Source of the DNA: Streptomyces vietnamensis
GTDB taxonomy: Bacteria; Actinomycetota; Actinomycetes; Streptomycetales; Streptomycetaceae
Assembly: GCF_000830005.1 (NCBI RefSeq)
Contig: NZ_CP010407.1
Span: 868,001 to 932,000 of the forward strand
Reading direction: 5' to 3'
Length of the DNA stretch: 64,000 nucleotides
A program made the position numbers and the translations under genes. The notes under the pieces were generated by a model. That model worked only from the letters and a program-made list of their open reading frames with translations. It did not search any database and was not told where the DNA came from. The first letter of the stretch is position 1, and each line of letters opens with the position of its first letter. Of this stretch, positions 5,271-22,474 are shown piece by piece.

Positions 5271-5276
5271 ACGGAA

Positions 5277-5301: not shown

Positions 5302-5342
5302 CGCACCTCGCAGAACGGGACATGCCGAGCCGAGGAGGCGTC

Positions 5343-6160: not shown

Positions 6161-6939
6161 CCTCCCGCGGCGAACGGAACGGCGCCGTCGTCCGGGTGGC
6201 GGCCGTGGGCGACATCCATCTGGGCGCGGACTGCCGGGGCCTGCTGCGCCCGTCCTTCGAGACCCTGCCGCTCTGCGCGGACCTGCTCCTCCTCGCCGGC
6301 GACCTCACCCGGCACGGCACCGTCCCGGAGGCGGAGGTGGTCGCCGGGGAGGTCCGCGACCTCGGCGTCCCCGTGGTCGCCGTGCTCGGCAACCACGACT
6401 ACCACTCCGAGCAGGAGGCCGAGGTCACGCGGGTCCTCACCGACGCCGGGATCACGGTCCTGGAGGGGGACGGGGTGGTCCTTCCGGTGGCCGGCGGCAA
6501 GGTAGGCGTCGCCGGGGCGAAGGGCTTCTGCGGCGGCTTCGCCGGCCGCAGCGCGGGAGAGTTCGGCGAGCGCGAGATGAAGGACTTCGTCCGCAGCGCC
6601 CGCCGCGGCGCCGAAGGCCTGCACCGGGCCCTGGCCGAGATTTCCGCCGACGGCTGCGGGGCCAGGATCGCCCTGACCCACTTCGCGCCCGTGCCCGACA
6701 CCCTCGCGGGCGAACCGGTCGAGATCTATCCCTTCCTGGGCAGCTACCTCCTCGCGGAGGCCATCGACGGGGCGGGCGCCGACCTCGCGGTCCACGGCCA
6801 TGCCCACCTGGGCACCGAGCACGGCATGACGGTGGGCGGGGTGCGCGTCCGGAACGTCGCCCAGCCCGTGATCGGCAGGGCGTTCGCGCTGTACCACCTC
6901 CCGCTCGCCGACCCTGCGTCCGCCCCGGACCCGGCCTGA
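6157..6939 (+). CDS. Calcineurin-like metallophosphoesterase
   Basis: 260 residues with the five metal-binding blocks of the superfamily in order: VGDIHLG (~14-20), LLAGDLT (~46-52), LGNHDYH (~80-86), a single His in LTHFAPVP (~174), and VHGHAHLG (~212-219). This gives a dinuclear metal phosphodiesterase or phosphatase; the substrate is unknown. There is no signal peptide, so it is cytoplasmic. GTG 6157 overlaps the TGA of the preceding small gene, making a three-gene operon with the DUF6328 protein. Confidence 0.85.
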   Translation: MTSRGERNGAVVRVAAVGDIHLGADCRGLLRPSFETLPLCADLLLLAGDLTRHGTVPEAEVVAGEVRDLGVPVVAVLGNHDYHSEQEAEVTRVLTDAGITVLEGDGVVLPVAGGKVGVAGAKGFCGGFAGRSAGEFGEREMKDFVRSARRGAEGLHRALAEISADGCGARIALTHFAPVPDTLAGEPVEIYPFLGSYLLAEAIDGAGADLAVHGHAHLGTEHGMTVGGVRVRNVAQPVIGRAFALYHLPLADPASAPDPA

Positions 6940-7069: not shown

Positions 7070-8857
7070 ATGAAGGTTTCCGACTACGTACTGGAGCGGC
7101 TGCGTGACTGGGAGGTGTCCCACGTCTTCGCCTACCCCGGTGACGGCATCAACGGGCTGCTGGCCGCCTGGGGGCGCGCGGAGGACCGGCCGCGGTTCGT
7201 CCAGTCGCGGCACGAGGAGATGTCGGCTTTCGAGGCGGTCGGGTACGCGAAGTTCTCCGGCCGGACCGGGGTGTGCGCGGCGACGTCGGGGCCGGGTGCC
7301 ATCCACCTGTTGAACGGCCTGTACGACGCGAAGCTCGACCACGTGCCCGTGGTGGCGATCGTCGGCCAGACCGATCGCAGCGCGATGGGCGGCTCCTACC
7401 AGCAGGAGGTCGACCTGGCCTGCCTGTACAAGGACGTGGCGTCGGAGTTCTGCGAGGTGGTCACCGTCCCCGCCCAGCTGCCGAACGTGCTGGACCGGGC
7501 GATGCGGGTGGCCGCCACCCGGCGCACGGTCACCGCCGTGATCATCCCGGCGGACGTGCAGGAGCTGGAGTACGAGCCTCCCTCGCACGCGTTCAAGCAG
7601 GTTCCCTCCAGCCTCGGCGCCCCCTTCTCCCTTCCGGTCCCGGCCGCGGAGGAGTTGGCGAGGGCGGCGGAGGTCCTCAACGCCGGCGAGAAGGTGGCCA
7701 TGCTGATCGGGCAGGGCGCGCGCAGGGCCCGCACGGAGGTCCAGCAGGTCGCCGAACTGCTCGGCGCGGGCGTGGCGAAGGCCCTGCTCGGCAAGGACGC
7801 GCTGCCGGACACGCTGCCGTACGTCACCGGGTCGATCGGCCTGCTCGGCACCCGTCCCTCCTACGAGATGATGCGCGACTGCGACACCCTGCTCGTGGTG
7901 GGCTCCAGCTTCCCCTACACCCAGTTCCTGCCCGAGTTCGAGCAGGCCAGGGCGGTGCAGATCGATCTGGATCCGTCCATGGTGGGCTTGCGCTACCCGT
8001 TCGAGGTCAATCTGGTCGGTGACGCAGGCGAGACGCTGCGCCGGCTGATCCCGATGCTGGACCACAGGTCGGACGGCACGTGGCGCAGGACGATCGAGGA
8101 CAACACGGCGCGCTGGTGGGAGGTGATGCAGCGCCGTGCCGAGGTCTCCGCGGACCCGATCAACCCCGAGTACGTCGTCCACGCCCTGGACGCGCTGCTG
8201 CCCGACGATGCGATCGTGGCCGCGGACTCCGGGTCGGCGGCGAACTGGTACGCCCGCCATCTGCGGATGCGCGGGGAGATGCGGGGCTCGCTGTCGGGCA
8301 CCCTGGCGACCATGGGGCCGGGGGTCCCGTACGCGATCGGCGCGAAGTTCGCGCATCCCGACCGGCCGGCGATCGCGATCGTCGGGGACGGCGCCATGCA
8401 GATGAACGGCCTCGCGGAGCTGATCACCGCCGCGAAGTACCACCGGGAGTGGTCCGACCCGCGCGTCGTGGTCGCGGTGCTCAACAACCAGGACCTCAAC
8501 CAGGTCACCTGGGAGATGCGCGCCATGCAGGGCGCCCCGCAGTTCGAGCCCTCGCAGGGCCTGCCCGACCTGCACTATGCCGACATCGCCCGGCAGTTGG
8601 GTCTGGACGGGGTGCGGGTGGAGCGACCGGAGGACGTGGAGTCGGCGTGGCGTCAGGCCCTCGCGGCGGACCGGCCGTTCGTCATCGACTTCCGCACGGA
8701 TCCGGCGGTGCCTCCGATCCCGCCGCACGCCACCTGGGACCAGATCAAGGACGCGGCCCTGTCGGTCCTCAAGGGCGACAGCGACCGGGCGTCGGTGGTC
8801 CGGCAGGGCATGAAGGCGAAGATCCAGGAGCTCCTGCCCGGCGGTGGACGGGGCTGA
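7070..8857 (+). CDS. Thiamine-pyrophosphate enzyme (pyruvate oxidase/acetolactate synthase-like)
   Basis: 595 residues, three-domain TPP fold. N-terminal PYR domain with the catalytic Glu in RHEE (E49) and ATSGPGAIHLLNGLYDAKLDHVPVVAI; central domain with ALLGKDALP and TGSIGLLGTRPS; C-terminal PP domain with VGDGAMQMNGLAELITA (~438) and the Mg ligand Asn in LNNQDLNQVTWE (~471). Length and motifs match pyruvate oxidases/decarboxylases better than biosynthetic acetolactate synthase, and no small regulatory subunit is nearby. Start ATG 7070 with AAGGAG eight bases before it. Only 3 bases separate it from the following FAD/Fe-S dehydrogenase, so the two probably act together; pyruvate plus lactate or another 2-hydroxy acid is the natural guess, not shown. 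Confidence 0.87.
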   Translation: MKVSDYVLERLRDWEVSHVFAYPGDGINGLLAAWGRAEDRPRFVQSRHEEMSAFEAVGYAKFSGRTGVCAATSGPGAIHLLNGLYDAKLDHVPVVAIVGQTDRSAMGGSYQQEVDLACLYKDVASEFCEVVTVPAQLPNVLDRAMRVAATRRTVTAVIIPADVQELEYEPPSHAFKQVPSSLGAPFSLPVPAAEELARAAEVLNAGEKVAMLIGQGARRARTEVQQVAELLGAGVAKALLGKDALPDTLPYVTGSIGLLGTRPSYEMMRDCDTLLVVGSSFPYTQFLPEFEQARAVQIDLDPSMVGLRYPFEVNLVGDAGETLRRLIPMLDHRSDGTWRRTIEDNTARWWEVMQRRAEVSADPINPEYVVHALDALLPDDAIVAADSGSAANWYARHLRMRGEMRGSLSGTLATMGPGVPYAIGAKFAHPDRPAIAIVGDGAMQMNGLAELITAAKYHREWSDPRVVVAVLNNQDLNQVTWEMRAMQGAPQFEPSQGLPDLHYADIARQLGLDGVRVERPEDVESAWRQALAADRPFVIDFRTDPAVPPIPPHATWDQIKDAALSVLKGDSDRASVVRQGMKAKIQELLPGGGRG

Positions 8858-8860
8858 CCG

Positions 8861-11836
8861 ATGACCGGCAGCCGGCGGGTCGACCTCGCCGCACTCGAAC
8901 GGGGGCTGCGGGCCGAGACGGACGGCGAGGTCCGCTTCGATCCGGGCAGCCGCGCCGCGTACGCGACGGACGGCTCCAACTACCGCCAGGTCCCGCTCGG
9001 CGTGGTCCTGCCGCGCACGGTGGAGGCCGGTGCCGCCGCGCTCGCCGTGTGCGCCCGGTTCGGCGCGCCGGTCCTGTCCCGCGGGGGCGGCACCAGCCTC
9101 GGGGGTCAGTGCACCAACGAGGCGGTGGTCGTCGACTGGACGAAGTACTGCGACCGCCTGCTGTCGGTGGACCCGGAGGCGCGGACCTGTATGGTCGAGC
9201 CGGGCATCGTCCTGGACGAACTGAACCGGCGACTCGCCCCGTACGGACTGAGGTTCGGGCCGAAACCGTCCACGCACACCCACTGTTCCCTGGGCGGGAT
9301 GATCGGCAACAACAGCTGCGGGGCCTCCGCCCAGGCCTACGGCAAGACCGTCGACAACGTCCGCCGCCTGGAAGTCCTCACCTACGGGGGGACCCGGTTC
9401 TGGGCCGGTCGTACGGACCCGGCGGAGTTCGCGAGGATCACGGCCGAAGGCGGGGCCCGCGCCCAGCTGTACCAGGGCCTGAAGGACGTCGTCGGGCGCC
9501 GTCTGGCCGAGATCCGCCAGGGCTACCCGAAGATCCCGCGCCGGGTCTCGGGGTACAACCTCGACTCGCTGCTGCCGGAGAACGGCTTCGACGTGGCCCG
9601 GGCGCTGGTGGGCAGCGAGGGCACGCTGGTGACCGTCCTGCGGGCCGAGCTGGAGCTCGTCGAGGTACCGGCCGCCGAGGCGCTCCTCGTCCTCGGCTTC
9701 GACGACGTCTACGCGGCCGCCGACGCCGTCCCCGCCCTCCTCGAACACAGCCGCCCCACCCAGCTGGAGGCCATCGACGGGCGCATGGCGCAGCTGATGC
9801 GCGAGGAGCACGCCTACCTCGACTCGCTGGAGAGCCTGCCCGAGGGCGACAGCTGGCTGCTGGTCCAGTTCACCGGCGACACGACGGAGCGGGCGGACGA
9901 GCAGGCGTACGAGCTGTTGCGGTCGCTGGGCCGCGACGAGGACGATCCCGGGGTGGTGCTCTCCGACGACCCGGCGCGGGAACGGGAGATGCTCAGGGCC
10001 CGGGAGGCGGGCCTGGGGGTGACCGCCCGCCCGCCGGACGGCTCCGAGACCTGGGAGGGCTGGGAGGACTCCGCGGTGGCCCCGGAGAAGCTGGGCGACT
10101 ACCTGCGTGACCTGGAACGGCTCTTCGACCGGTACGGCTATCAACAGGCCTCCTTGTACGGGCACTTCGGGCAGGGCTGTGTGCACACCCGGATCCCGTT
10201 CGAGCTGCGCGAGGGCAAGGGCGTCGAGGCCTTCCGCAGGTTCCTGTTCGACGCGGCCGACCTCGTGGCCTCGTACGGCGGGTCGTTGTCGGGCGAGCAC
10301 GGTGACGGGCAGGCCCGCGGCGAACTGCTGCCGCGCATGTTCACTCCGGCCCTGATGGAGGCGATGGGCGAGGTCAAGACGCTGTTCGACCCCGGCGACC
10401 GGATGAACCCCGGCAAGGTCGTCCACCCTCACCGCGTCGACGACAATCTGCGCCTGGGCGCTGCCTGGCGGCCCGAACGGCAGCGGACGTACTTCGCGTA
10501 CTCCGGTGACGGCAACGACTTCGGCCGGGCCGTGCTGCGCTGTGTGGGCATCGGCAACTGCCGCACCCACCGGGGCGGAGTCATGTGCCCGTCCTATCGG
10601 GCCACCGGCGAGGAGGAGCACTCCACCCGCGGCCGGGCGCGGCTGCTGTTCGAGATGCTCGGCGGTCACGCCGACTCACCGGTCACCGGCGGCTGGCGCT
10701 CCACCGAGGTCCGCGACGCACTGGACCTGTGTCTGGCCTGCAAGGGCTGTAAGTCCGACTGCCCGGTCGGGGTCGACATGGCCACCTACAAGGCCGAGTT
10801 CCTGGCCCACCACTACCGGGGCCGGCCCCGCCCTCCGGCCCACTACTCCATGGGCTGGCTGCCGCTGTGGGCGCGGCTGGCCCGCACCGCGCCGGGCTTC
10901 GCGAACGCCGCCCTGCACGCCCCCGGTCTGGGCCGGGCGGGGAAGCTGCTGGCCGGAATCGACCCGCGCCGCGACGTACCCCTCTTCGCCGCCGAGTCGT
11001 TCCAGGAGGCCCGGCACCGATCCGGCGGCGCGCAGCCCGATCCGCGCGATCCGCGCACCGTTCTGCTCTGGCCGGACACGTTCACCAACCACTTCCACCC
11101 CCACGTCGCCGACGCCGCGGTCCGGGTCCTCGAGGACGCCGGCTTCCGCGTCGCGGTGCCGTACGGGCCCGTGTGCTGCGGTCTGACGTGGATCTCCACC
11201 GGGCAGCTCGCCACCGCCCGCCGCGTCCTGCGACGGACCACGCGAGCGCTCCGGCCGTGGCTGGAGGCCGGCACACCGGTCATCGGCCTCGAACCGTCCT
11301 GCACCGCGGTCTTCCGGGCCGACGCCCCCGACCTGCTCGCCGGCGACCAGGACGTCATCCGCCTCGCGGCGCAGACCCGGACCTTCGCCGAACACCTCGT
11401 CGGCCGAGGCCCCGAGGGCTGGCAGCCGCCCACGATCGGGCGGGCGGCGACCGTGCAGACCCACTGCCACCAGCACGCCGTCCTCGGCGCCGACGCGGAC
11501 CGGGAACTGATGCGCCGTGCCGGACTGGACGCGCGGGTGCTCGACGAGGGCTGCTGCGGGCTGGCCGGCGACTTCGGCTTCACACAAGGGCACTACGACC
11601 TGTCGCAGGCCATCGCCGAACAGGGCGTGCTGCCCGCCGTGCGCGACACCGCGCCCAGCGCCCTCGTCCTGGCCGACGGGTTCAGCTGCCGTACCCAGAT
11701 CGACCAGGCCGGGACCGGCCGGCAGGCCCTGCACCTGGCCGAGGCCCTCGCCCTGGCACTGGACGGGCCGCTGCCCGCCGACCACCCCGAGAAGGCGGTA
11801 CCGCGCCCCCGGATCCGGAGGGATGCGACACGATGA
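8861..11836 (+). CDS. Fused FAD-binding and Fe-S dehydrogenase (GlcD-GlcF/D-lactate dehydrogenase-like)
   Basis: 991 residues joining two parts that are often separate. Residues ~1-540: FAD-binding (PCMH) domain with VLSRGGGTSLGGQC and GNNSCG, then the FAD-linked oxidase C-terminal domain with SGEHGDGQARG. Residues ~550-991: GlcF-like part with CVGIGNC plus MCPSY (~561 on), the cluster motif CLACKGCKSDCP (~626), and two CCG domains (VCCGLTW ~770; GCCGLAG ~897). The family oxidises D-2-hydroxy acids such as D-lactate or glycolate and passes electrons to membrane quinones. The CysCysGly domains suggest a second cofactor or heterodisulfide-type electron route. It lies 3 bases after the TPP gene and overlaps the next start (ATGA). 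Confidence 0.88.
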   Translation: MTGSRRVDLAALERGLRAETDGEVRFDPGSRAAYATDGSNYRQVPLGVVLPRTVEAGAAALAVCARFGAPVLSRGGGTSLGGQCTNEAVVVDWTKYCDRLLSVDPEARTCMVEPGIVLDELNRRLAPYGLRFGPKPSTHTHCSLGGMIGNNSCGASAQAYGKTVDNVRRLEVLTYGGTRFWAGRTDPAEFARITAEGGARAQLYQGLKDVVGRRLAEIRQGYPKIPRRVSGYNLDSLLPENGFDVARALVGSEGTLVTVLRAELELVEVPAAEALLVLGFDDVYAAADAVPALLEHSRPTQLEAIDGRMAQLMREEHAYLDSLESLPEGDSWLLVQFTGDTTERADEQAYELLRSLGRDEDDPGVVLSDDPAREREMLRAREAGLGVTARPPDGSETWEGWEDSAVAPEKLGDYLRDLERLFDRYGYQQASLYGHFGQGCVHTRIPFELREGKGVEAFRRFLFDAADLVASYGGSLSGEHGDGQARGELLPRMFTPALMEAMGEVKTLFDPGDRMNPGKVVHPHRVDDNLRLGAAWRPERQRTYFAYSGDGNDFGRAVLRCVGIGNCRTHRGGVMCPSYRATGEEEHSTRGRARLLFEMLGGHADSPVTGGWRSTEVRDALDLCLACKGCKSDCPVGVDMATYKAEFLAHHYRGRPRPPAHYSMGWLPLWARLARTAPGFANAALHAPGLGRAGKLLAGIDPRRDVPLFAAESFQEARHRSGGAQPDPRDPRTVLLWPDTFTNHFHPHVADAAVRVLEDAGFRVAVPYGPVCCGLTWISTGQLATARRVLRRTTRALRPWLEAGTPVIGLEPSCTAVFRADAPDLLAGDQDVIRLAAQTRTFAEHLVGRGPEGWQPPTIGRAATVQTHCHQHAVLGADADRELMRRAGLDARVLDEGCCGLAGDFGFTQGHYDLSQAIAEQGVLPAVRDTAPSALVLADGFSCRTQIDQAGTGRQALHLAEALALALDGPLPADHPEKAVPRPRIRRDATR

Positions 11837-12987
11837 AGTCCCGGCCCGAAGCGGTGCGGCGCGGGCCCGCGCCGAAGGACACGGCCACCGGCGCTCCGAC
11901 GGTCGAGTCCCTGCGGGTGCACGTCCTCGAGTTCCCGACCGATGCCCCCGAGGCGGACGGCACCTTCGCCTGGGACCGTACGACCATGGTCCTGGTCCAG
12001 GCCCGTGGCGGCGGTGCTTCGGGCCTGGGCTACACCTACGGCGACCGGGCCACCGCCGGCGTGATCACCGGGCTTCTCCACGATGTGGTCGTCGGTCTGC
12101 CGGCCTTCGACGTTCCGGCGGCGAACGAGGCGATGAGCCGGGCGGTGCGGAACGCCGGCCGGCCCGGCCTGATCGCCGGCGCCGTCTCCGCGATCGACGT
12201 CGCCCTGTGGGACCTCAAGGCCCGCCTCCTGGAGCTGCCGCTGGCCGACCTGCTCGGCCGGGCCCGGACCGACGTGCCCGTCTACGGGAGCGGCGGCTTC
12301 ACCACGTACACCGACCGCCGGCTCGCCGAGCAGCTCGACGGCTGGTCCGGCCAGGGCATCACCCGCTTCAAGATCAAGATCGGCGAGGGGTGGGGAACCC
12401 GGGAGCGACGCGACCTGGAACGTGCCGAGCGGGCCAGGGCGCTGCTGGGCGACGACGCCGAGCTGTACGTGGACGCGAACGGGGCCTACACCCGCAAGCA
12501 GGCCGTCCGGATCGGGCGGGCGCTGGACGGCGTGGGGGTCGGCTGGTTCGAGGAGCCCGTCTCCTCCGACGACCTCACCGGGCTCGCCCGCGTGCGCCAC
12601 TCCGTCACTGCCGACGTCGCCGCCGGCGAGTACGGCTACGACCTGCCCTACTTCGCCCGCATGATCCCGGCCGTCGACTGTCTGCAGGCCGACGCCACCC
12701 GCTGCGGCGGCATCACCGTGTGGCTGCGCGCAGCCGCCCTCGCCCAGGCCCACGGCCTGCAGCTGTCCGGCCACTGCGCGCCGCATCTCCACGCGCACGC
12801 CGCCGCGGCCGTGCCGAACCTCCGGCACCAGGAGTGGTTCCACGACCACGTCCGCATCGAGAACCTGCTGTTCGACGGCGCCCTCGACCCGGCCGGCGGC
12901 ACCGTGCGGCCGGGCCGGGACGGGGAGCCGGGGTTGGGCCTGACGATCCGGCCCGACGTCGCGGATCGGCATCGTGTCCGTGGGTAG
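11833..12987 (+). CDS. Mandelate racemase/muconate lactonizing enzyme family protein (enolase superfamily)
   Basis: 384 residues. Seen: RFKIKIGEGW with the KxK catalytic lysines, three metal ligands as YVDANGAY (Asp), WFEEPVS (Glu) and VAAGEYGYD (Glu), and a C-terminal His in GHCAPHLHAH. The KxK plus His arrangement is that of the mandelate racemase subgroup, whose members racemise or dehydrate acid sugars through an enolate. The substrate cannot be assigned. An N-terminal ~20-residue basic extension precedes the capping domain. The ATG lies in the stop of the FAD/Fe-S gene, so expression is coupled. Confidence 0.87.
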   Translation: MKSRPEAVRRGPAPKDTATGAPTVESLRVHVLEFPTDAPEADGTFAWDRTTMVLVQARGGGASGLGYTYGDRATAGVITGLLHDVVVGLPAFDVPAANEAMSRAVRNAGRPGLIAGAVSAIDVALWDLKARLLELPLADLLGRARTDVPVYGSGGFTTYTDRRLAEQLDGWSGQGITRFKIKIGEGWGTRERRDLERAERARALLGDDAELYVDANGAYTRKQAVRIGRALDGVGVGWFEEPVSSDDLTGLARVRHSVTADVAAGEYGYDLPYFARMIPAVDCLQADATRCGGITVWLRAAALAQAHGLQLSGHCAPHLHAHAAAAVPNLRHQEWFHDHVRIENLLFDGALDPAGGTVRPGRDGEPGLGLTIRPDVADRHRVRG

Positions 12988-13049
12988 CACCGGTGTCGGC
13001 GACGGGCGACGGACCGGCACGCACCGGCCGGGCCGGAAAGGACGCGCCG

Positions 13050-14807
13050 ATGACGGCGTCCGTCCGCGGCCGACCTGATCCGCATGCCCTGCGGGACTAC
13101 GCCCTGCTCGCGGACGGCGAGCGCGGCGCCCTGGTCGGGCCGCGCGGCGAGATCGTGTGGATGTGCGCACCCGCCTGGGACGACGATGCCGTCTTCGCCG
13201 CACTCATCGGCGGCGACGGCTGGTACAGCGTCACCCCGGACGGGCCGTTCGTGTGGGGTGGCTACTACGAGCCGGGCAGCCTGATCTGGCGCAGCCGCTG
13301 GATCGGGACGGACGGCATCGTCGAATGCCGCGAGGCCCTGGCCCACCCCGGTGACCCGCACCGTGCCGTGGTGCTGCGCCGGATCCTGGCCGTCGACGGC
13401 GAAGCCCGCCTGACGGTGCAACTGCGCGTGGCGGCCGGCTTCGGAACGGCGCCGCTGCGCGAGGTGCGCCGCGATGAGCACGGGCGCTGGACGGGCCGCG
13501 CGGGAGACCTGTACGTGCGGTTCAGCGGCGCGCCGGACGCCCGACCCGGCGACGGGGGGCTGAGCACCACCGTCACGATGGAAGCGGGGGCGCACCACGA
13601 TCTCGTCCTGGAGGTCTCCGGTCGGCCGCCGCCGGCACCGGAGACGGCGGAGGTGTGGTGGCGGGCCACCGAGACGGGATGGGCCGGGTGCGTGCCCGAC
13701 CTCACCGGCACACCGGGCCGACGCGACGCCCGGCACGCGTACGCGGTCATGGCCGGCCTGACCTCCTCGACCGGGGGCACGGTCGCCGCGGCCACCACCA
13801 GCCTGCCCGAACGGGCCGAGCAGGGCCGCAACTACGACTACCGGTACGTGTGGATCCGCGACCAGTCCTTCATCGGCCAGTCCGCCGCCGCGGTCGGCGG
13901 GCAGCGACTCCTCGACGACTCGCTGCGCTTCGTCACCGCCCGCCTCCTGGAGCACGGCCCCGGCCTCTCCCCCGCCTACACCGCCGCCGGGCGGGCGGTG
14001 CCCGGCCGGCGCGCCCTGAACCTGCCGGGCTACCCGGGCGGCTACGACGTCGTCGGCAACCGCGTCAGCCACCAGTTCCAGCTCGACGTGTTCGGCGAGG
14101 CCCTGCTGCTCCTGGCCGCGGGCGCCCGGCACGACCGGCTGGACGCGGACGGCCGACAGGCGGCGCTCACCGCGGCCGACGCGATCGCGGCCCGCCGCCG
14201 GGAGCCGGACGCCGGGATCTGGGAACTGCACAACGACCGCTGGACGCACAGCCGCCTGGTGTGCGCGGCCGGACTGCGGGCGATCGCCGCCGTGGCCCCC
14301 CGGGCGGACAGCGGACGCGCCGCCGGCTGGGAGGCGCTCGCGGACGCGATCGTCGCCGACACCGCGGCCGAATGCCTGCACCCGACGGGACGCTGGCAGC
14401 GCTCCCCCGATGACGACCGTGTGGACGCGGCCCTGCTGCTCCCCGCCCTTCGCGGCGCCCTGCCCGCCGACGACCCCCGCACCGTCGCCACCCTGCGCGC
14501 GGTGCGCACCGACCTCGCCTGCGATCACTACGTCTACAGGTTCCGCCACGACCGGCGACCGCTGCAGGACGCCGAAGGGGCGTTTCTGCTGTGCGGCTTC
14601 ACCGTGGCGATGGCCGAGCACCAGCAGCACGACGACGTCGAGGCGATGCGCTGGTTCGAACGCAACCGAGCCGCTTGCGGTCCGCCGGGCCTGTACGCGG
14701 AGGAGTTCGACGTCGCCCAGCGCCAGCTGCGCGGCAATCTGCCGCAGGCCTTCGTCCACGCCCTGATGCTCGAAGCCGCCGCCCGCCTCGGGCAGGAGCG
14801 GCACTGA
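13050..14807 (+). CDS. Glycoside hydrolase family 15 (glucoamylase-like) protein
   Basis: 585 residues, no signal peptide. N-terminal beta-sandwich (~1-255) with YALLADGERGALVGPRGEIVW, the usual opening of bacterial GH15 proteins. The C-terminal (alpha/alpha)6 barrel carries NYDYRYVWIRDQSF (normally DYRYCWLRDA), HQFQLDVFGE, and the catalytic-base region LYAEEFDVAQRQLRGNLPQAF. It likely hydrolyses alpha-glucosides such as trehalose or maltooligosaccharides inside the cell. GGAAAGGA lies just before ATG 13050, 62 bases after the enolase-superfamily gene. Confidence 0.85.
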   Translation: MTASVRGRPDPHALRDYALLADGERGALVGPRGEIVWMCAPAWDDDAVFAALIGGDGWYSVTPDGPFVWGGYYEPGSLIWRSRWIGTDGIVECREALAHPGDPHRAVVLRRILAVDGEARLTVQLRVAAGFGTAPLREVRRDEHGRWTGRAGDLYVRFSGAPDARPGDGGLSTTVTMEAGAHHDLVLEVSGRPPPAPETAEVWWRATETGWAGCVPDLTGTPGRRDARHAYAVMAGLTSSTGGTVAAATTSLPERAEQGRNYDYRYVWIRDQSFIGQSAAAVGGQRLLDDSLRFVTARLLEHGPGLSPAYTAAGRAVPGRRALNLPGYPGGYDVVGNRVSHQFQLDVFGEALLLLAAGARHDRLDADGRQAALTAADAIAARRREPDAGIWELHNDRWTHSRLVCAAGLRAIAAVAPRADSGRAAGWEALADAIVADTAAECLHPTGRWQRSPDDDRVDAALLLPALRGALPADDPRTVATLRAVRTDLACDHYVYRFRHDRRPLQDAEGAFLLCGFTVAMAEHQQHDDVEAMRWFERNRAACGPPGLYAEEFDVAQRQLRGNLPQAFVHALMLEAAARLGQERH

Positions 14808-14941
14808 CCCGTGCACGAGGAGGTGGGGCTCGTGGCGTGATTCCCCCGTGGGGGTGGGCCGCGCGGGTGACCCTGGCCGCGCCGCCCGTACCGGCGCGCC
14901 CCCGAGTGGAGACCATACTCACGGGCAACGGGAGGCCGGGA

Positions 14942-15394
14942 GTGCGCGGGGTGCTGGAGATCGTGGTGTGGTGGGCCGTGCTGACCGCGGCGACGGTGGT
15001 GTTCATCAGCTCCGTGTCGCCCGTCGAACTGGTGGTGGGCGCCCTTGCCGCGCTGGGCGGGGCCTTCGCGGCCCGCAGGATGCGCCTGGCCGCCGGCGGC
15101 CGGGCGAAGGGAGGCCGGGGCGCGGTGCGCGCGCTCGTCGCCCTGCCGGGCTCGGTGGTGCGCGGTCTGGGCGTGCTGACGGCCGCCGTGGTCACCGACC
15201 CGGCAGGCGCGCTGGTGCGGCGCGTCCGCCTGCGGCGGGGAACGGGGGCCGGGTGGGCCGGCACGTTGCTCGGCATGTCGCCGGACACCTGCGTGATCGA
15301 CGTCCCCCGGGACGACGAGGTCCTCGTCCACGCCCTGCGTCCGGGAGCCGGACCGGTCGAGCAGGCCGTGGCCCGCGCGGACGGCGCGCGGTGA
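14942..15394 (+). CDS. mnhE: Na+(cation)/H+ antiporter subunit E (MrpE/MbhA-like)
   Basis: 150 residues. The N-terminal membrane segments (LEIVVWWAVLTAATVVFIS and VELVVGALAALGGAFAAR) and the soluble end PDTCVIDVPRDDEVLVHAL match MrpE/MnhE, whose C-terminal domain normally carries the 'v-d-d-vlvH-l' strand. GTG 14942 is preferred because GGGAGG lies 7 bases before it and an upstream extension would be poor in helices. First gene of a seven-gene antiporter module with overlapping starts and stops. Confidence 0.85.
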   Translation: MRGVLEIVVWWAVLTAATVVFISSVSPVELVVGALAALGGAFAARRMRLAAGGRAKGGRGAVRALVALPGSVVRGLGVLTAAVVTDPAGALVRRVRLRRGTGAGWAGTLLGMSPDTCVIDVPRDDEVLVHALRPGAGPVEQAVARADGAR

Positions 15395-15675
15395 ACGCCT
15401 GGGCCGTCGCAGCCCTGGTCCTCCTGGCCGTCCCGGCGCCGGCGTGCCTGTGGGTGGCGGCTCGTGGCAGCGCGGTGCACCGCCTGGTCGGAGCCTCGCT
15501 GCTCTCCAGCGTGACCGGGGCCGTGTTCCTCCTGCTGCCCCAGGCCTACGACCGGTCCTCCTACCAGGACCTCGCGCTGGTGCTCGGCGTCCTCGCCCCC
15601 GCCGGCGCCCTCGTCTTCACCCGCTTCGTCTCCGGTCGCCATCACGAGACACACGGTTCCGCGACCGACACCTGA
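15391..15675 (+). CDS. mnhF: Antiporter subunit F (MrpF/MbhB-like)
   Basis: 94 residues with three predicted membrane helices (~3-22, 31-52, 60-80). Small subunit F of Mrp-type antiporters keeps this three-helix layout; here the middle helix has VHRLVGASLLSSVTGAVFLLL, and the usual Asp-rich third helix is DLALVLGVLAPAGALVF. GTG 15391 overlaps the TGA of the preceding gene (GTGA). The end is followed directly by a CCGCA repeat tract. Confidence 0.78.
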   Translation: MNAWAVAALVLLAVPAPACLWVAARGSAVHRLVGASLLSSVTGAVFLLLPQAYDRSSYQDLALVLGVLAPAGALVFTRFVSGRHHETHGSATDT

Positions 15676-15725
15676 CCGCACCGCACCGCACCGCACCTCA
15701 CCGCACTGCACCGCACCGCACCGCA
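15676..15725 (+). repeat. CCGCA pentanucleotide tract (10 units)
   Basis: Ten consecutive 5-base units, eight exactly CCGCA and two with one change (CCTCA, CTGCA), filling most of the 79-base gap between the F and G subunit genes. It is not coding and is the only sizeable gap in the module. Confidence 0.9.
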
Positions 15726-15754
15726 CACGTCGGCACACAGGAAGGAGACCGGAA

Positions 15755-16060
15755 TTGACGCCGCCTCACGTGGTCGTACTCGTGCTGCTGTGGACCGGTG
15801 TGGCCGCCGTGCTCCTGTCCGCGGCCGCGGTACTGCGGCTGCGCGGCACCCTGATGCGGCTGCACGCCCTGGCACCCGCGTCCTGCGTCGGGATGCCGCT
15901 GATCGCCGCGGCGGTGGCCGTCGAGCAGGGTGCGGGCCGGGCGGCAGCCAAGACACTGTTCATCGGCCTGCTCTTCGCCGTCGGCGGCACGGTCACCACC
16001 ATCGCCGTGGGCCGCGCCGCCGACCGGTCCGGAGAGGCCGAGAAGGGGGGCGGGTCGTGA
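15755..16060 (+). CDS. mnhG: Antiporter subunit G (MrpG/MbhC-like)
   Basis: 101 residues, three predicted membrane helices (~5-28, 38-58, 66-86). The stretch RLRGTLMRLHALAPASCVGMPLI is the conserved MnhG/MrpG signature (normally lrfpdlytRlHAat...G). The start is TTG 15755: GAAGGAG at 15741-15747 is well spaced and there is no ATG or GTG better placed. Ends in a GTGA overlap with the next gene. Confidence 0.83.
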   Translation: MTPPHVVVLVLLWTGVAAVLLSAAAVLRLRGTLMRLHALAPASCVGMPLIAAAVAVEQGAGRAAAKTLFIGLLFAVGGTVTTIAVGRAADRSGEAEKGGGS

Positions 16061-16353
16061 ACGAGTGGCTGGTCGGAGCCGCCGTCGCCTTCGTCGTCCT
16101 CGCCGCGACCGTCGCGGTCCTCACCCGGGACCCGACGCGCCAGGCCGTCGTCCTCTCCGTCCTGGGCCTGGGCCTGGCGATCCTGTTCGCCGTGCTGCAG
16201 GCACCCGACGTGGCGCTGTCCCAGTTGGGCGTGGGCACCGCGCTCACCCCGCTGATGATCCTGCTGACCGTCCGCAAGGTCACCCGTCAGCCCACGCGCG
16301 CGAGCCGCGACGCCGACCGGCACGACGGTGCCGAGGGGCGGGAGCAGGGGTGA
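16057..16353 (+). CDS. DUF4040/MbhD-like antiporter subunit
   Basis: 98 residues with two to three membrane helices and the core LFAVLQAPDVALSQLGVGTAL, the DUF4040 (MbhD) signature with the conserved 'apDva.te..vG'. In standard Mrp antiporters this segment is part of the C-terminal end of the large MrpA; here it is a separate gene as in Mbh/Mbx complexes. GTG 16057 overlaps the previous stop and its own stop overlaps the next GTG. Confidence 0.83.
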   Translation: MNEWLVGAAVAFVVLAATVAVLTRDPTRQAVVLSVLGLGLAILFAVLQAPDVALSQLGVGTALTPLMILLTVRKVTRQPTRASRDADRHDGAEGREQG

Positions 16354-17102
16354 CAGCGCGCGCCCGGCTGGTCCTGTTCCTGGTCGCCGCCGTGGTGTTC
16401 GCCGGCTTCTTCACGGCCGCGTGCGCGCATCTGCCGCCGTTCGGGACACCGGACCATCCCTACGGCGACCGGGCGGTGGCGGCGGCCCTGGCCCGCCGCA
16501 CCGCGAACGTCGTCTCCGCGGTCAACTTCGACGTCCGCGCCTTCGACACGCTCGGTGAGGAGTCCATCCTCTTCGGCACCGTCCTCGGGGCGACCCTGCT
16601 GCTGCGCCGGGCCCATGACGAACGCCACCGCCGGGCGGAGGCGGAACGCGTCATGCCCACCACCCGGCTGTTCGGCACGCTGCTGCTGCCCATCGCCCTG
16701 GTCGTCGGCGTGTACGTCGTCGCGCACGGCCAGCTCAGTCCCGGCGGCGGCTTCCAGGGCGGCGTCGTCCTGGCCACCGCCCTGCACCTGGCGTACGTGG
16801 CCGCCGACTACCGCGCCCTGAAGAAGCTCCGGCCACTGGCCGTGCTGGACGTGGCGGACTCGCTCGCCGCCGCCTCCTACACCCTCATCGGCCTGGCCGG
16901 CCTGATCGCCGGGAGCGCGTTCCTCGAGAACGTACTGCCCCTCGGCACCTTCAACACCATGACGTCCGGCGGCACCGTTCCGGTGCTGAACGCCGCGGTC
17001 GGCGTCGAGGTCGCCTGCGGCCTGATCACCCTGCTCGCCCACTTCCTCAGCCAGGCCGTCGAACTCACCGACACCGACCGCCGAGAGAACGGAGACGGCT
17101 GA
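16350..17102 (+). CDS. mnhB: Antiporter subunit B with MbhE-like N-terminus
   Basis: 250 residues. The first ~100 residues resemble MbhE/the end of MrpA: one membrane helix, HLPPFGTPDHPYG, then VSAVNFDVRAFDTLGEESILF, the conserved 'vt.Vll.fRg.DTlgE' signature. Residues ~105-245 are the MnhB/MrpB domain: LFGTLLLPIALVVGVYVVAHGQLSPGGGFQGG with the typical GQlsPGGGFqaG, and further helices. So it is a fusion of two subunits that are separate in Mbh. GTG 16350 in GTGA overlap; its end touches the next ATG. Confidence 0.85.
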   Translation: MTARARLVLFLVAAVVFAGFFTAACAHLPPFGTPDHPYGDRAVAAALARRTANVVSAVNFDVRAFDTLGEESILFGTVLGATLLLRRAHDERHRRAEAERVMPTTRLFGTLLLPIALVVGVYVVAHGQLSPGGGFQGGVVLATALHLAYVAADYRALKKLRPLAVLDVADSLAAASYTLIGLAGLIAGSAFLENVLPLGTFNTMTSGGTVPVLNAAVGVEVACGLITLLAHFLSQAVELTDTDRRENGDG

Positions 17103-17449
17103 TGGGGACGTGGCCCTACCTCGCCGCCGGCTGGGTCCTGCTGGTCGCCCTGTACGGACTGGTCACCAGCCGCAACCTGATCCACGCCATCGGCTGCCTG
17201 GCGGTCGCCCAGTCCTCCACCTATCTCCTGCTGCTTGCCGTCGGCTACCGTCGCGGAGCGACCGCCCCCGTGTACTCCGACCTCACCCCCGGCACCCGTC
17301 CGGTCGTCGACCCCGTCGTGCAGGCACTGGCGCTGACCGATGTCGTCGTCGGCGCCACCGTCACCGCCCTGCTGCTCGCCCTCACCATCCAACTGCGCAA
17401 GCGCCACCGCACCGTCGACCCCCAGGCCCTCACGGGCCTGAAGGGCTGA
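17102..17449 (+). CDS. mnhC: Antiporter subunit C (MrpC/NuoK-like)
   Basis: 115 residues, three membrane helices (~5-22, 28-48, 76-98). YGLVTSRNLIHAIGCLAVAQS is the NuoK/MnhC pattern and VVDPVVQALALTDVVVGATVTALLLAL is the conserved third helix (normally DPlpqALvLTaIVigfa). ATG 17102 lies immediately after the subunit B stop. The family helps form the proton path next to the antiporter subunit. Confidence 0.87.
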   Translation: MGTWPYLAAGWVLLVALYGLVTSRNLIHAIGCLAVAQSSTYLLLLAVGYRRGATAPVYSDLTPGTRPVVDPVVQALALTDVVVGATVTALLLALTIQLRKRHRTVDPQALTGLKG

Positions 17450-17452
17450 CAC

Positions 17453-19276
17453 GTGACCGAGGCCGCCCTGCTGCCGCTCGCCGTCGCCATCCCCCTGCTC
17501 GGCGCCGCCCTGCTCGCCGTCGCCGGCCGGACGCTGCCCCGGACCGGCTGCGACATCCTGGCGACCGCGTCGGCGACGGCCGAGGTCGTCTGCCTGGCCC
17601 TGCTCTGGCCGCACAGCCGGCACCTCGCCACGGCGGACCTCGGCGGCTGGCCCGCCCGCCTGGGCATCGTGCTCGCCGCCGACCCGATCGGCGCGGGCCT
17701 GGCGCTCCTCGTCGCCGTCCTGGTGCTCGCGGTCGTCGTCTACTCCTGGCGGTACTTCGACGAACCCGCCGGGGAACACGCCGGAGCGTTCCCCGCCCTG
17801 ATCCTGCTCTTCGAGGCCGGCATGGCCGGCTTCGCCCTGACCGGCGACCTGTTCGACGCCTTCGTCTTCTTCGAGCTGATGGGCGCGGCCGCCTACGCCC
17901 TGACCGGATACCGGATCGAAGACCCCCGCCCCCTCCACGGCGCCCTCGCGTTCGGCATCGTCACCTCCTTCGCCGCCTACTGCTCCCTGTTCGGCATCGG
18001 CATGCTCTACGCCCGCACCGGCGAACTCAACCTCGCCCGCCTGGGGCTCCGTCTGTCCTCCCACCCCGCCGACGTGCTGACCGTCGTCGCGTTCGCCCTC
18101 ATCTGTACGGCCCTGCTGGTCAAAGCCGCGGCCGTACCGTTCCACTTCTGGCTGCCCGACGCCCACGCGGTGGCCCCCACCCCGGTGTGCATGCTGATGT
18201 CCGGCGTCATGGTCGAACTCGGCGTGTACGGCGTCGGGCGCGTGTACTGGACCGTCTTCTCCGGCCCGGGCGGCATCCCTCCCCATGCCTTCCGCACCGC
18301 CTTCACCGCCCTCGGCGTGCTGACCGCGCTGCTGGGCGCCCTGATGTGCTGGCAGCAGCGCCACCTCAAGCGGCTCCTCGCGTTCTCCACCGTCAGCCAC
18401 GTCGGCCTGTTCCTGATCGGCGTCGCCCTGCTCACCCCTTCGGGCGTCACCGGCACGGCGGTGTACGTCGCCGCGCACGGCTGCGTCAAAGCCGCGCTCT
18501 TCGCCCTCACCGGAGTGCTTCTGGACCGCTACGGCTCCGTCGACGAACACGGCCTGCACGGCAGGGCCCGCGAGCTGCGTCCGGTGGGTGTGCTGTTCCT
18601 GACCGGCGCCCTGGCGCTGGCCGGGCTGCCGCCGTTCGGCACCGGCCTCGGCAAAGCGCTCGGCGAGGACGCCGCCGGGCACTGGCAGCCCTGGCTGCTC
18701 CCCGCCGTGTTCGTCACCGCCTCCGCCGTCACCGGTGCCGCCGCGCTCCGCGCGGGCCTGCGCGTCTTCTTCGGCACGGGCCCCGTGCCCCACAGCCGTC
18801 CGGGCGAGGAGGAGACCACCGGCGAGGGCGAGGAACCCGAGATCCGCTCGCCGGAGCGCAGCCTGCCGCTCCCCATGACCGTCGTCCCGGCCGTCCTGCT
18901 CGCCCTGGCCGTGCTCATCGGCTGCCTGCCGGCCGTCGCCGCCGCCCTCGCCCGTGCGGCGTCCGTCTTCACCGACCCGGCCCGGTACGCCGCCGCGGTC
19001 CTCGCCGTGCCCGGCACGCCGCCGGCGGCCGCATCGACGCCGGCGGCCGGGTGGACCGTGGCGGGAGTGCTCCTCGGGCTGCTGTCCACCGTCCTCGCGG
19101 CCGCCCTGGCGACCGCCGCGGTCCACCACCGCGGTCCCTCGCTGTCCACGCGCCACTGGACCGTCCGCGCGGTACGGACGCTGCGCCGCCTGCACTCCGG
19201 ACACCTCGGCGACTACCTCGCCTGGCTCGCCCTCGGCCTCGTCACCCTGTGCGTCGCACTCGTCACCCAGATCTGA
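17453..19276 (+). CDS. mnhD: Antiporter subunit D (MrpD/MbhH; NuoM/N-like)
   Basis: 607 residues, about 14-16 membrane helices. Seen: FFELMGAAAYALTGY with the Glu of the TM5 antiporter motif, LLVKAAAVPFHFWLPDAHAVAPTPVCMLMSGVMVELGVYG with the TM7 Lys and discontinuous helix, and QQRHLKRLLAFSTVSHVGL with the TM8-9 charged residues. These are the ion-translocating features shared with complex I. It is the only large antiporter-like subunit of the module; no MrpA/NuoL gene is present. GTG 17453 lies three bases after the subunit C stop. A 193-base gap leads to the molybdenum enzyme. Confidence 0.9.
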   Translation: MTEAALLPLAVAIPLLGAALLAVAGRTLPRTGCDILATASATAEVVCLALLWPHSRHLATADLGGWPARLGIVLAADPIGAGLALLVAVLVLAVVVYSWRYFDEPAGEHAGAFPALILLFEAGMAGFALTGDLFDAFVFFELMGAAAYALTGYRIEDPRPLHGALAFGIVTSFAAYCSLFGIGMLYARTGELNLARLGLRLSSHPADVLTVVAFALICTALLVKAAAVPFHFWLPDAHAVAPTPVCMLMSGVMVELGVYGVGRVYWTVFSGPGGIPPHAFRTAFTALGVLTALLGALMCWQQRHLKRLLAFSTVSHVGLFLIGVALLTPSGVTGTAVYVAAHGCVKAALFALTGVLLDRYGSVDEHGLHGRARELRPVGVLFLTGALALAGLPPFGTGLGKALGEDAAGHWQPWLLPAVFVTASAVTGAAALRAGLRVFFGTGPVPHSRPGEEETTGEGEEPEIRSPERSLPLPMTVVPAVLLALAVLIGCLPAVAAALARAASVFTDPARYAAAVLAVPGTPPAAASTPAAGWTVAGVLLGLLSTVLAAALATAAVHHRGPSLSTRHWTVRAVRTLRRLHSGHLGDYLAWLALGLVTLCVALVTQI

Positions 19277-19469
19277 ACGAGCGTGCCGGGGCCGGCCGGG
19301 CAGGACGGAGGAGCCCGTCGGTCACCGGCCCGGGGTGTCGCGTGCATGGACCCGCCCCACGGGGGCATGCGCGAAACGGCGTCCCCTGAGGCCGCCGCCC
19401 GCTCCCTGTCCCTGCAACCGGGCGGCGGCAAGGCCGCGGACCCTGCTTCCGGCCGGTCGGGAGGTGACC

Positions 19470-21959
19470 GTGAGGACTTCGGTGGACCGCATCGCACAGC
19501 CCTGGGGCAGTCGCACCCCGTACGGACGGGATCGTCGCTGGCCCACCCGCCGGGACACGTGTCTCGCCGACGGTGTCCGGGAGGACGAGGTCGACCGCTG
19601 GGTGCAGACGGCCTCGCTCCTGCATTCCGACGGCGACGCCATGGACATCGCCGTGAAGGACGGAAGCATCGTCGGCGTGCGGGGCAGGACCGTCGACCGT
19701 GTCAACCGCGGCCGGCTCGGGCCCAAGGACGCCTTCGCGTGGCAGGCCAACAGTGCCGCCGACCGGCTCCGCCGGCCGTTGGTACGCCGGGACGGGCGCC
19801 TCGTCGAGACGGACTGGGACTCGGCGATGACCCTCGTCGCGGCCCGCTCGCGCACGCTGCTGGACGCGCACGGGTCCGGTTCGATCGGCTTCTACACCTC
19901 CGGGCAGTTGTTCCTGGAGGAGTACTACACGCTCGCGGTCCTGGCCCGGGCCGGCCTCGGCACCCCGCACCTCGACGGCAACACCCGGCTCTGCACCTCG
20001 ACCGCGGCCGAGGCGCTGAAGGAGTCGTTCGGGTGCGACGGCCAGCCGGGCAGTTTCGACGACATCGACCACGCCGACGTCATCGCCCTGTTCGGGCACA
20101 ATCTCGCCGAGTCCCAGCCGGTGCAGTGGATGCGCCTGCTCGACCGTCTGGAGGGCGCCGATCCGCCCCGGCTGGTGTGCGTCGACCCCCGGCCCACTCC
20201 GGTGGCCCGACGGGCGTCCGTGCACCTGGCCCCACGGGTCGGCACCAACGTGGCCCTGTTGAACGCCCTCCTGCACGAGATCGTCCGCGCCGGACATGTC
20301 GATCGCCCCTACGTCGAACGGCACACGGTCGGCTTCGACGAGCTGGAACGGGCCGTCGCGCCCTGCACTCCCGAGTGGGCCGCCGCCCTCTGCGACGTGC
20401 CGGCGTCCCGGATCCGGGAGGCGGCCGAGGTGCTCGGCACCGCGGACCGGCTGCTGTCCACGGTGCTGCAGGGCGTCTACCAGTCGCACCAGGCCACCGC
20501 CGCGGCCGTCCAGGTCAACAACCTGCACCTGGTCCGGGGCATGCTCGGCCGGCCCGGCGCGGGCGTGCTCCAGATGAACGGGCAGCCCACCGCCCAGAAC
20601 ACCCGTGAGTGCGGCGCCGACGGCGACCTGCCGGGGTTCCGCAACTGGGCGAACGAGGAGCACGTGGCCGAGCTGGCGAAGGTGTGGAACGTCGAGCCCG
20701 ACAGCATCCCGCACTACGCACCGCCGACCCACGCCCTGCAGATGTTCCGGTATGCCGAGCAGGGCTCCCTCCGCATGCTGTGGATCAGCGGCACCAACCC
20801 GGCCGTCTCCCTCCCCGAGCTCTCCCGCGTGCGCGACGTCCTCACCCGCGAGGGGCTGTTCGTCGTCGTCCAGGACTTGTTCCGCACCGAAACCGCCCAG
20901 CTCGCCGACGTCGTCCTGCCGGCCGCGACCTGGGGAGAGAAGACCGGCACCTTCACCAACGCCGATCGCACCGTGCACCTCTCCGAGCGGGCCGTCGAGC
21001 CGCCCGGGGACGCACGGCCGGACCTCGACGTCTTCCTCGATTACGCCCGCCGCATGGACTTCCGTGACAAGGACGGCGGGCCGCTCGTCACCTGGCACGA
21101 CCCGGAATCCGCCTTCGAGGCGTGGAAGCGGTGCAGTGCCGGCCGCCCGTGCGACTACACCGGCCTGTCGTACGACCGGCTGCGCGGCGGCAGCGGCGTG
21201 CAGTGGCCGTGCACCGACGCGGCCCCGGACGGGACGCCGCGCCTGTACGCCGACGGCGTCTCCTGGGCCCACCCCGACACCTGCGAGTCGTACGGCAAGG
21301 ACCTCGTCACCGGCTCACCGGCGCCGGCCGCCGAATACCGGCACCTGAATCCTGACGGCAAGGCGGTGATCCGGGCGGCGGAGTACCTGCCGCCGCACGA
21401 GGACTCCGGGGCGGAGCTGCCCTTCCAGCTGACGACCGGCCGCACCCTCTACCACTTCCACACCCGCACCAAGACGGGCCGCACTCCCCAGCTGGACGCT
21501 GCGGCGCCCGAGGTGTGGGTGGAGATCTCCGTCGCCGACGCCACCGAGCTCGGCCTCCACGAGGGGGACCTCGTCGAGGTCGGAAGCCCCCGCGGCTCGC
21601 TCCAAGGGCGCCTGCGCGTCACGGAGATCCGGCGCGGTCTGCTGTTCGTGCCCTTCCACTACGGCTACTGGGACACCCCCGGCGGCTCGGGTCCCTCCGA
21701 CGGGTCACCCGGGCGGGCGGCCAACGAGGCCACGGTCACCGACTGGGACCCCGTCTCCAAGCAGCCGCTGTTCAAGACGGCCGCCGCGCGCCTCACACTC
21801 CTGGCGCGCGGTGACGGAAAGCCCTCTCCCGCCCCCACCACCACGGCCTCCGCCCCGGCCCGCCCGGGCACGGTTCCGGCGACCGCGGGCGGCCGGACGG
21901 CATGGGTCGAGGAGTCGTTCGAGGCCGAGGAGCCCCACGAAGCGGAGACGGGACCGTGA
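19470..21959 (+). CDS. Molybdopterin oxidoreductase lacking the 4Fe-4S cysteines
   Basis: 829 residues with the DMSO-reductase/assimilatory nitrate reductase fold and C-terminal molydopterin dinucleotide-binding domain (~680-790). Seen: DRWVQTASLLHSDGDAMDIA, where the cluster pattern CxxCxxxC is S49-H52-D56, and VNRGRLGPKD, where the fourth Cys is G84. Hence none of the four cluster ligands remains. The Lys of that motif (K86) and the probable Mo ligand Cys175 (TRLCTSTA) remain, as do QVNNLHLVRGMLGRPGAG, NGQPTAQNTRECGADGDLPG and GEKTGTFTNADRT of nitrate-reductase relatives. Start GTG 19470 with GGGAGG five bases upstream. The C-terminal ~45 residues are Ala/Pro/Thr rich. Substrate and electron partner are unknown. 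Confidence 0.85.
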   Translation: MRTSVDRIAQPWGSRTPYGRDRRWPTRRDTCLADGVREDEVDRWVQTASLLHSDGDAMDIAVKDGSIVGVRGRTVDRVNRGRLGPKDAFAWQANSAADRLRRPLVRRDGRLVETDWDSAMTLVAARSRTLLDAHGSGSIGFYTSGQLFLEEYYTLAVLARAGLGTPHLDGNTRLCTSTAAEALKESFGCDGQPGSFDDIDHADVIALFGHNLAESQPVQWMRLLDRLEGADPPRLVCVDPRPTPVARRASVHLAPRVGTNVALLNALLHEIVRAGHVDRPYVERHTVGFDELERAVAPCTPEWAAALCDVPASRIREAAEVLGTADRLLSTVLQGVYQSHQATAAAVQVNNLHLVRGMLGRPGAGVLQMNGQPTAQNTRECGADGDLPGFRNWANEEHVAELAKVWNVEPDSIPHYAPPTHALQMFRYAEQGSLRMLWISGTNPAVSLPELSRVRDVLTREGLFVVVQDLFRTETAQLADVVLPAATWGEKTGTFTNADRTVHLSERAVEPPGDARPDLDVFLDYARRMDFRDKDGGPLVTWHDPESAFEAWKRCSAGRPCDYTGLSYDRLRGGSGVQWPCTDAAPDGTPRLYADGVSWAHPDTCESYGKDLVTGSPAPAAEYRHLNPDGKAVIRAAEYLPPHEDSGAELPFQLTTGRTLYHFHTRTKTGRTPQLDAAAPEVWVEISVADATELGLHEGDLVEVGSPRGSLQGRLRVTEIRRGLLFVPFHYGYWDTPGGSGPSDGSPGRAANEATVTDWDPVSKQPLFKTAAARLTLLARGDGKPSPAPTTTASAPARPGTVPATAGGRTAWVEESFEAEEPHEAETGP

Positions 21960-22474
21960 GCGGGCTCGCGGCGGTCCTCGACGCCCTGCGCAGGGACGAG
22001 CGCCGGCTGACCACGGAGCTCCTCGCGCTGGCCGGGCGCCACCGGCAGGAGCACGAGATCCACCACGTCGCCACGGACCTCGCGCGCTGGTCGGCCGAGC
22101 ACGACCGTCTCCTGAGGGAGACCCTGCACCACTACGGCCCCGCGGACACCGCACCGCCCTCGTCCGACCCCCCGGACACCGCACCGCCCCCGGCCGGCCC
22201 TCGGGAGACCGGAGCGCCTCCGGCCGGCCCTCGGGAGGCCGGACCCATGACGGACGACGCTCCTCCCGACCTCTTGGAGGACTTGCGGGCGCTGCACCTG
22301 GCCGTGGCCGGCAACTGCGTGTACTGGCAGATGCTGGCCCAGGCCGCCGCAGCCACCCGGGACTCCCGCCTCACCGAGCTCGTCGAACACTGCGAGCCGC
22401 AGGCGCAGCGCCAGCTCCGCTGGACCGAGAGCATGATCAAGAGCTTGGCGGCACAGCTCCTGACGGCTTCCTGA
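21956..22474 (+). CDS. His-rich helical protein linked to the molybdenum enzyme
   Basis: 172 residues, not assigned to a named family. Residues 1-62 are helical and rich in His/Glu (RHRQEHEIHHVATDLARWS, then AEHDRLLRETLHHYG). Residues ~63-98 are a Pro/Asp linker with two kinds of internal repeat (DTAPP x2; GPRE.GAPPAGPRE). Residues ~103-172 are again helical (VAGNCVYWQMLAQAAAAT, then HCEPQAQRQLRWTES). The two helical halves could make a bundle with metal ligands, as in ferritin- or hemerythrin-like proteins, but no known motif is complete. GTG 21956 lies in the stop of the molybdenum enzyme, so they are coupled. Function inferred only from this coupling. Confidence 0.7.
   Translation: MSGLAAVLDALRRDERRLTTELLALAGRHRQEHEIHHVATDLARWSAEHDRLLRETLHHYGPADTAPPSSDPPDTAPPPAGPRETGAPPAGPREAGPMTDDAPPDLLEDLRALHLAVAGNCVYWQMLAQAAAATRDSRLTELVEHCEPQAQRQLRWTESMIKSLAAQLLTAS

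Follow-up and report, generated by a model that had tools for sequence, protein, structure and literature searches.

The 13 genes that lie in one row on the plus strand at positions 7070–22474 of our window, a 64,000-nucleotide stretch within the 9.15-Mb genome of Streptomyces vietnamensis, are probably a composite of known kinds of parts: an Mrp-type antiporter module allied with a catabolic set, in a neighbourhood that recurs in relatives in shuffled form, and an independent molybdenum enzyme pair that lies downstream. The first-pass annotation had proposed that this run is a new electron-transfer and ion-pumping system, an interpretation that is partly supported overall. Its description of the locus holds, in that the 13 genes are co-directional, have the domain content named (Pfam, NCBIfam) and are interrupted by gaps of 62, 134, 79 and 193 bases.

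The run opens with four enzyme genes. The first (7070–8857) encodes a TPP-dependent, pyruvate-oxidase-like enzyme of the PRK08273 type, with the N, M and C TPP_enzyme domains of Pfam and a score of 999.8 bits to NF006129 (cut-off 724). It is followed by a fused FAD and 4Fe-4S/CCG dehydrogenase of the D-2-hydroxyacid type (8861–11836; YdiJ/GlcD-like, under equivalog cut-offs), an acid-sugar dehydratase-like enzyme of the enolase superfamily (MR_MLE; 11833–12987; best match NF047820 at 188.9 bits, under the cut-off of 500) and a GH15 enzyme with a trehalase-like N-terminal domain (13050–14807; Pfam and NCBIfam). The same-strand run extends past the 13 genes: P450, DUF6328, BON-domain and metallophosphatase genes are immediately upstream (4038–6939), the last two directly before the run (5909–6939). 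Downstream are genes for STAS, SpoIIE-phosphatase and anti-sigma-type kinase proteins, and the surroundings look like a stress-associated accessory island. A bacterial topoisomerase IB gene is encoded on the minus strand (2879–3889) amid plus-strand stress-type genes. A scan of the run returned no promoters and two terminator-like sites (mean of 1.9 in shuffled sequence), which neither favours nor excludes a single transcript, and an Rfam search of the window gave zero matches.

Seven genes after the enzymes form the antiporter module. These are an MnhE/MrpE-like subunit (14942–15394), MnhF/MrpF (15391–15675) and MnhG/MrpG (15755–16060), both from Pfam, MbhD/DUF4040 (16057–16353; PF13244), which is a separate gene outside any full-length MrpA, a fused MbhE+MnhB subunit (16350–17102), whose best PDB match is MbsE of Pyrococcus furiosus MBS (6u8y_E, 5.2e-23), an MnhC/NuoK-like subunit (17102–17449; Pfam) and an MnhD/MbhH-like antiporter subunit (17453–19276). 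PMC8415708 defines group 3 Mrp by the absence of mrpA. By that definition and judged from its sequence, the module is a seven-gene stand-alone group 3 Mrp (MrpE-F-G-MbhD-MbhE/B-C-D). The E, F, G, B-type, C and D subunits occur together, MnhE only as a weak match (22 bits against a Pfam cut-off of 27) that also draws on its position in the module. The starts of MnhE and of the molybdenum gene (19470) were chosen among several possible ones. Group 3 is used differently in PMC5703873, for an irregular gene order with each subunit present, and a group 3 cluster that includes an A gene is listed there for the actinobacterium Microbacterium sp. TS-1.

MrpA is absent from the operon and was not found elsewhere in the genome among the PF00361 places checked. 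The nine antiporter-type places are the MnhD of the window, two complex I sets of three (an assignment based on the order and length of the genes) and, at a Hyf/Ech-like locus, two more. That locus (L187, G000:C1:517001-532000) encodes NuoB-, NuoH- and 30/49-kDa-like and two antiporter-like subunits and lies ~350 kb from the block. The two complex I gene sets of the same genome (L188 and L189, G000:C1:4958001-4976000 and 4998001-5014000) are ~35 kb apart.

Among solved structures, MnhD is most similar to the MbhH subunit of the P. furiosus MBH hydrogenase (6cfw_H, 5.9e-47), and Mrp D subunits rank behind it. In the alignment with MbhH, residues E141, K224 and K401 pair with Glu and Lys, and 38 of 39 sequences retain each of them. 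At position 255, 36 of 39 relatives have Glu in place of the TM8 Lys of the aligned MbhH and MrpD. The predicted activity of the module is most likely the exchange of Na+ or K+ for H+. The closest described counterpart is the stand-alone Mrp of P. furiosus (mrpEFGBB'CD) described in PMC8415708, which calls it unique in having no energy-input module and ties it to pH-dependent growth with Na+ as the coupling ion. Both systems have the E-F-G-B-type-C-D order and one antiporter-like D subunit, and both lack MrpA and an energy-input module. However, the module described here is actinobacterial, has a separate MbhD gene, has MbhE fused to MnhB as in MBS and carries the Glu in place of the TM8 Lys. 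Among the matches listed by a literature search, no paper deals with the 13-gene block or with a group 3 Mrp from Streptomyces.

So, is the run one redox-driven ion pump? The reading taken from the first-pass annotation is a single electron-transfer complex, with a membrane arm powered by the molybdenum enzyme and the dehydrogenases. The genes are contiguous in the window, and Mrp arms that work with redox modules are described for MBH/MBS and for Thermococcus onnurineus fdh2-mfh2-mnh2 in PMC8415708 and PMC5522443. The module resembles the MBH/MBS membrane arm (6cfw, 6u8y), with MnhD nearest to MbhH and the MnhB-type subunit nearest to MbsE, but MBH/MBS has a hydrogenase-like JKLMN module and none occurs in the 13 genes or their scanned neighbours. 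Similarly, an Fdh-family molybdenum enzyme is encoded near an Mnh module in both T. onnurineus and the window, but fdh2-mfh2-mnh2, as presented in PMC5522443, includes an Mfh hydrogenase module, whereas the window lacks one and its molybdenum enzyme has no Fe-S cluster. Neither NuoB/NuoD/NuoH-type coupling subunits nor a hydrogenase domain were found in the 13 genes and 17 scanned neighbours, so a single redox-driven pump is not supported. The molybdenum enzyme also lacks an Fe-S relay, and it was not found together with Mnh genes in the available flanks of 120 loci (80 molybdenum, 40 antiporter; see below). We consider a single complex extremely unlikely.

MnhD matches occur in 41 of 150 Streptomyces genomes, that of the window included, and in 16 of 296 genomes of the class (both at E 1e-60), as well as in 12 of 396 genomes of the phylum (E 1e-80). 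We inspected the neighbourhoods of 40 of the 57 Streptomyces and class-level places outside the window's genome, and nine phylum-level stretches; several stretches are on short contigs, and some genes were missed by the gene caller, which is suited to high-GC DNA. MnhB and MnhC were recovered in 39 of the 40 loci and MbhD in 38, and the MnhE and MnhG counts run low because these short, diverged subunits escape tblastn.

Relatives of the window enzymes are encoded near some of these antiporters: the TPP enzyme in seven of the 40 loci, the FAD/Fe-S dehydrogenase and GH15 enzyme in four each and the enolase-superfamily enzyme in three (five, two, two and two, respectively, at ≥55% identity). In 10 loci at least one of the four lies no more than ~10 kb from the antiporter, and none is near in the other 30. 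In one locus (L139), the FAD/Fe-S, TPP and GH15 genes come directly after MnhD and are co-directional with it, with spacings of 112, 75 and 153 bases, and in another (L128) a co-directional FAD/Fe-S gene begins 315 bases after MnhD. In a locus from another family (L150), co-directional FAD/Fe-S, enolase and TPP genes (50–52% identity) precede the antiporter, with one opposite-strand gene and at least one further called gene between the enzymes and the antiporter. The TPP gene is divergent from the antiporter in L129, L130 and L132; the first two look alike and may represent one event. Among the nine phylum-level stretches, five have a recognisable module, and the only enzyme match among their called genes is a GH15-like protein at 32% identity (L172). 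The company of antiporter and enzymes thus recurs while order and strand change.

Co-occurrence across the 150 Streptomyces genomes shows the same tendency. MnhD is present in 24 of 36 genomes with the FAD/Fe-S dehydrogenase and 17 of 114 without it, in 28 of 42 with the enolase-superfamily enzyme and 13 of 108 without it, and in 31 of 80 with the TPP enzyme and 10 of 70 without it. The FAD/Fe-S test used, among the matches listed, 36 rows at ≥60% identity and ten near 50%. The TPP gene lies ≤20 kb from MnhD in 6 of the 31 genomes with both, that of the window included (~0.14 expected at random), and still in 5 of 30 (~0.13 by random placement) when the window's genome is left out. The corresponding counts are 3 of 24 genomes for FAD/Fe-S and 3 of 28 for enolase. 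Neither the co-occurrence nor the distance tests take account of shared descent or of the way accessory genes crowd on chromosome arms.

The TPP, FAD/Fe-S and enolase genes also cluster without the antiporter. They occur together in at least 12 of the 150 genomes (that of the window included), six of which lack an MnhD match; this count used 36 FAD/Fe-S, 24 of 91 TPP and 21 of 43 enolase rows, leaving out versions at ~50% identity. At 5 kb, it agrees with the co-occurrence test for the TPP–FAD and FAD–enolase pairs and is lower for TPP–enolase (16 versus 23). A fixed operon of upstream enzymes and antiporter is rejected, given the shuffled order, the 30 of 40 loci without the enzymes and the enzyme set that also occurs alone; a recurrent, loose association is kept instead. 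The expectation that the four enzymes travel with the antiporter therefore stands in part. The presence of at least one nearby in 10 of 40 loci is above random placement, but the order and strand change, most loci lack all four, and FAD/Fe-S, TPP and enolase stand alone in six genomes without MnhD.

We read this association as a physiological alliance. The main rival holds that there is no functional link, and that all three components (antiporter, oxidation enzymes and molybdenum pair) are accessory genes that crowd into the same stress-type islands of Streptomyces. Consistent with crowding, the antiporter repeatedly has other, unrelated families nearby as well (luciferase-like proteins in 6 and DUF6328 in 4 of 40 loci), 30 of the 40 loci are without the four enzymes, and the formate dehydrogenase subunit FdhB likewise co-occurs with MnhD, as detailed below. 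The tight co-directional arrangements in L139 and L128 argue against it, as does the comparable set that L150, from another family, carries at ~50% identity. Crowding alone is possible but, in our judgement, rather unlikely, and the alliance is the leading reading.

Near other group 3 Mrp modules, genes for FdhA, FdhB and NrfD occur in six of the 40 loci, from four actinobacterial families (L133, L135, L136, L145, L148 and L150). In L135 (8728–16213) they directly follow MnhD and are co-directional with it, and the Fe4S4 domain of FdhA is intact. FdhB is found in 23 of 41 genomes with MnhD and 11 of 109 others; put the other way, MnhD is present in 23 of 34 genomes with FdhB and 18 of 116 without it. 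FdhB lies ≤20 kb from MnhD in 4 of the 23 genomes with both (nine distances were computed, and the rest are on other contigs or, in G023, 1.6 Mb apart). These patterns raise the idea that the redox partner of the antiporter, where there is one, is an NrfD-type formate dehydrogenase, with the link lost in the window's genome. However, the distance and strand vary, 34 of the 40 loci have no such genes, and a search of the window's genome at E 1e-60 gave no match to FdhB. We view a lost formate dehydrogenase partner as improbable.

The most interesting part of the locus is the molybdenum enzyme family, in which four Fe-S cysteines are replaced, together with its ferritin-like partner. The gene at 19470–21959 encodes a Mo-bisPGD oxidoreductase of the Fdh/Nap/Nas type, with PF00384 and PF01568 present and the Fe4S4 domain PF04879 absent. 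The absence of an Fe-S cluster noted in the first-pass annotation is shared by the aligned relatives: the CxxCxxxC...C motif has become SxxHxxxD...G, and no Cys occurs in the former Fe4S4 stretch in any of the 80 readable rows of the family alignment. The Mo-ligand position is Cys-Thr in 81 of 81 rows, and the Cys of the RLCT motif is the putative Mo ligand. Compared with NapA, NasA and FdhF (2jim, 7qv7), the enzyme shares the domain order and the Cys at the Mo-ligand position, but differs in the SxxHxxxD...G replacement, the Thr after the Mo-Cys and the ferritin-like partner. In formate dehydrogenases, His follows the Mo-coordinating Cys or Sec (as in Escherichia coli FdhF). Formate dehydrogenase activity is disfavoured here by the Thr, which stands in place of His in 81 of 81 rows, and that reading also scores low (453 bits to TIGR01591 against a cut-off of 666). 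Among the matches listed, the nearest named relatives are from Streptomyces, and no Fe-S-less molybdenum enzyme of such a type was found in the literature. An AlphaFold model of the enzyme (pLDDT 52.6) was left out of the evidence.

Does this enzyme belong with the antiporter? We examined the 80 loci that hold its closest relatives, out of at least 590 confirmed stretches. The small partner accompanies the enzyme in 78 of the 80. Other window families are rare (TPP in three, GH15 in two, FAD/Fe-S in one, enolase in none), and Mnh subunit genes occur in the flanks of none of the 80. Gene calling gave 79 molybdenum ORFs in these loci; upstream sequence reaches at least 2 kb for 77 of them and at least 9 kb for 64, so an adjoining MnhD would have shown up in those 77. 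Conversely, none of the 40 antiporter loci holds an orthologue of the enzyme; six hold other molybdenum proteins, with 24–36% identity to it. The first-pass annotation linked the antiporter module to the molybdenum gene, and because the two are apart in both sets of loci, we reject the proposal that the enzyme serves the antiporter as a redox partner. The enzyme and its partner are best interpreted, on this comparative evidence, as an independent pair that chances to sit downstream, with the enzyme a probable bystander of the antiporter.

The upstream gene context of the molybdenum enzyme in relatives is partly conserved. BON-domain and metallophosphatase genes precede it on the same strand at 0.76–5.3 kb in 14 of the 80 listed loci. 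In 13 of these the distance is 0.76–1.47 kb with one minus-strand gene between; in the other (L065) it is 5.3 kb, with six genes between. In the window, a 12.2-kb stretch (7070–19276) separates the BON and metallophosphatase genes from the molybdenum gene, and the TPP-to-MnhD stretch may have ended up between them. Given the intervening genes in all 14 loci, we do not claim that the molybdenum gene is part of a BON–metallophosphatase operon. The whole block, molybdenum pair included, may be stable in the window's own clade; the genomes surveyed are not very close relatives of the window's.

The small partner (21956–22474) matches no Pfam or NCBIfam family above cut-off, and its sequence has no PDB match up to E 1. 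A ferritin-like four-helix fold is predicted for a homologue (L054), which has 4–14% identity to ferritin, bacterioferritin and Dps structures in the rows shown. E15 and H33 are invariant and E34 and H37 almost so. A single ExxH (E34/H37) of possible di-iron ligands is visible, and a second was not seen in the alignment. The partner homologues listed, among them one at 86% identity in a Streptomyces vietnamensis record, carry no protein name. The enzyme would act on a small substrate, perhaps swapping electrons via the partner. A bolder proposal is that the pair is a two-protein oxidoreductase of new build: an Fdh/Nap-type enzyme, its Fe-S cluster gone through fixed Ser/His/Asp/Gly replacements, would receive or give electrons by way of a four-helix protein that is ferritin-like and binds metal or haem. 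We regard this joint claim as doubtful.

How might the antiporter and catabolic set be allied? Gene content, recurrence and separation in relatives and the residue losses are observed, and from these we infer the alliance and all activities. The enolase-superfamily enzyme, the FAD/Fe-S dehydrogenase, the TPP enzyme and the GH15 enzyme would most likely work on a sugar or hydroxy acid, dehydrating and oxidising it, and most likely hand the electrons to the quinone pool. Respiration would build a proton gradient, which the Mrp would spend in swapping cations for protons. Mrp and catabolic enzymes would then be allied physiologically yet separate from any common complex.

A tempting single energy-coupling machine is thus replaced by separate, testable parts. 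Also of interest are the recurrent company of the Mrp with acid-oxidation enzymes and an actinobacterial molybdenum enzyme family that has no Fe-S relay and an unnamed, putatively ferritin-like partner. For Streptomyces, an aerobic and genetically tractable genus, a stand-alone group 3 Mrp would offer a route to what drives Mrp without MrpA.
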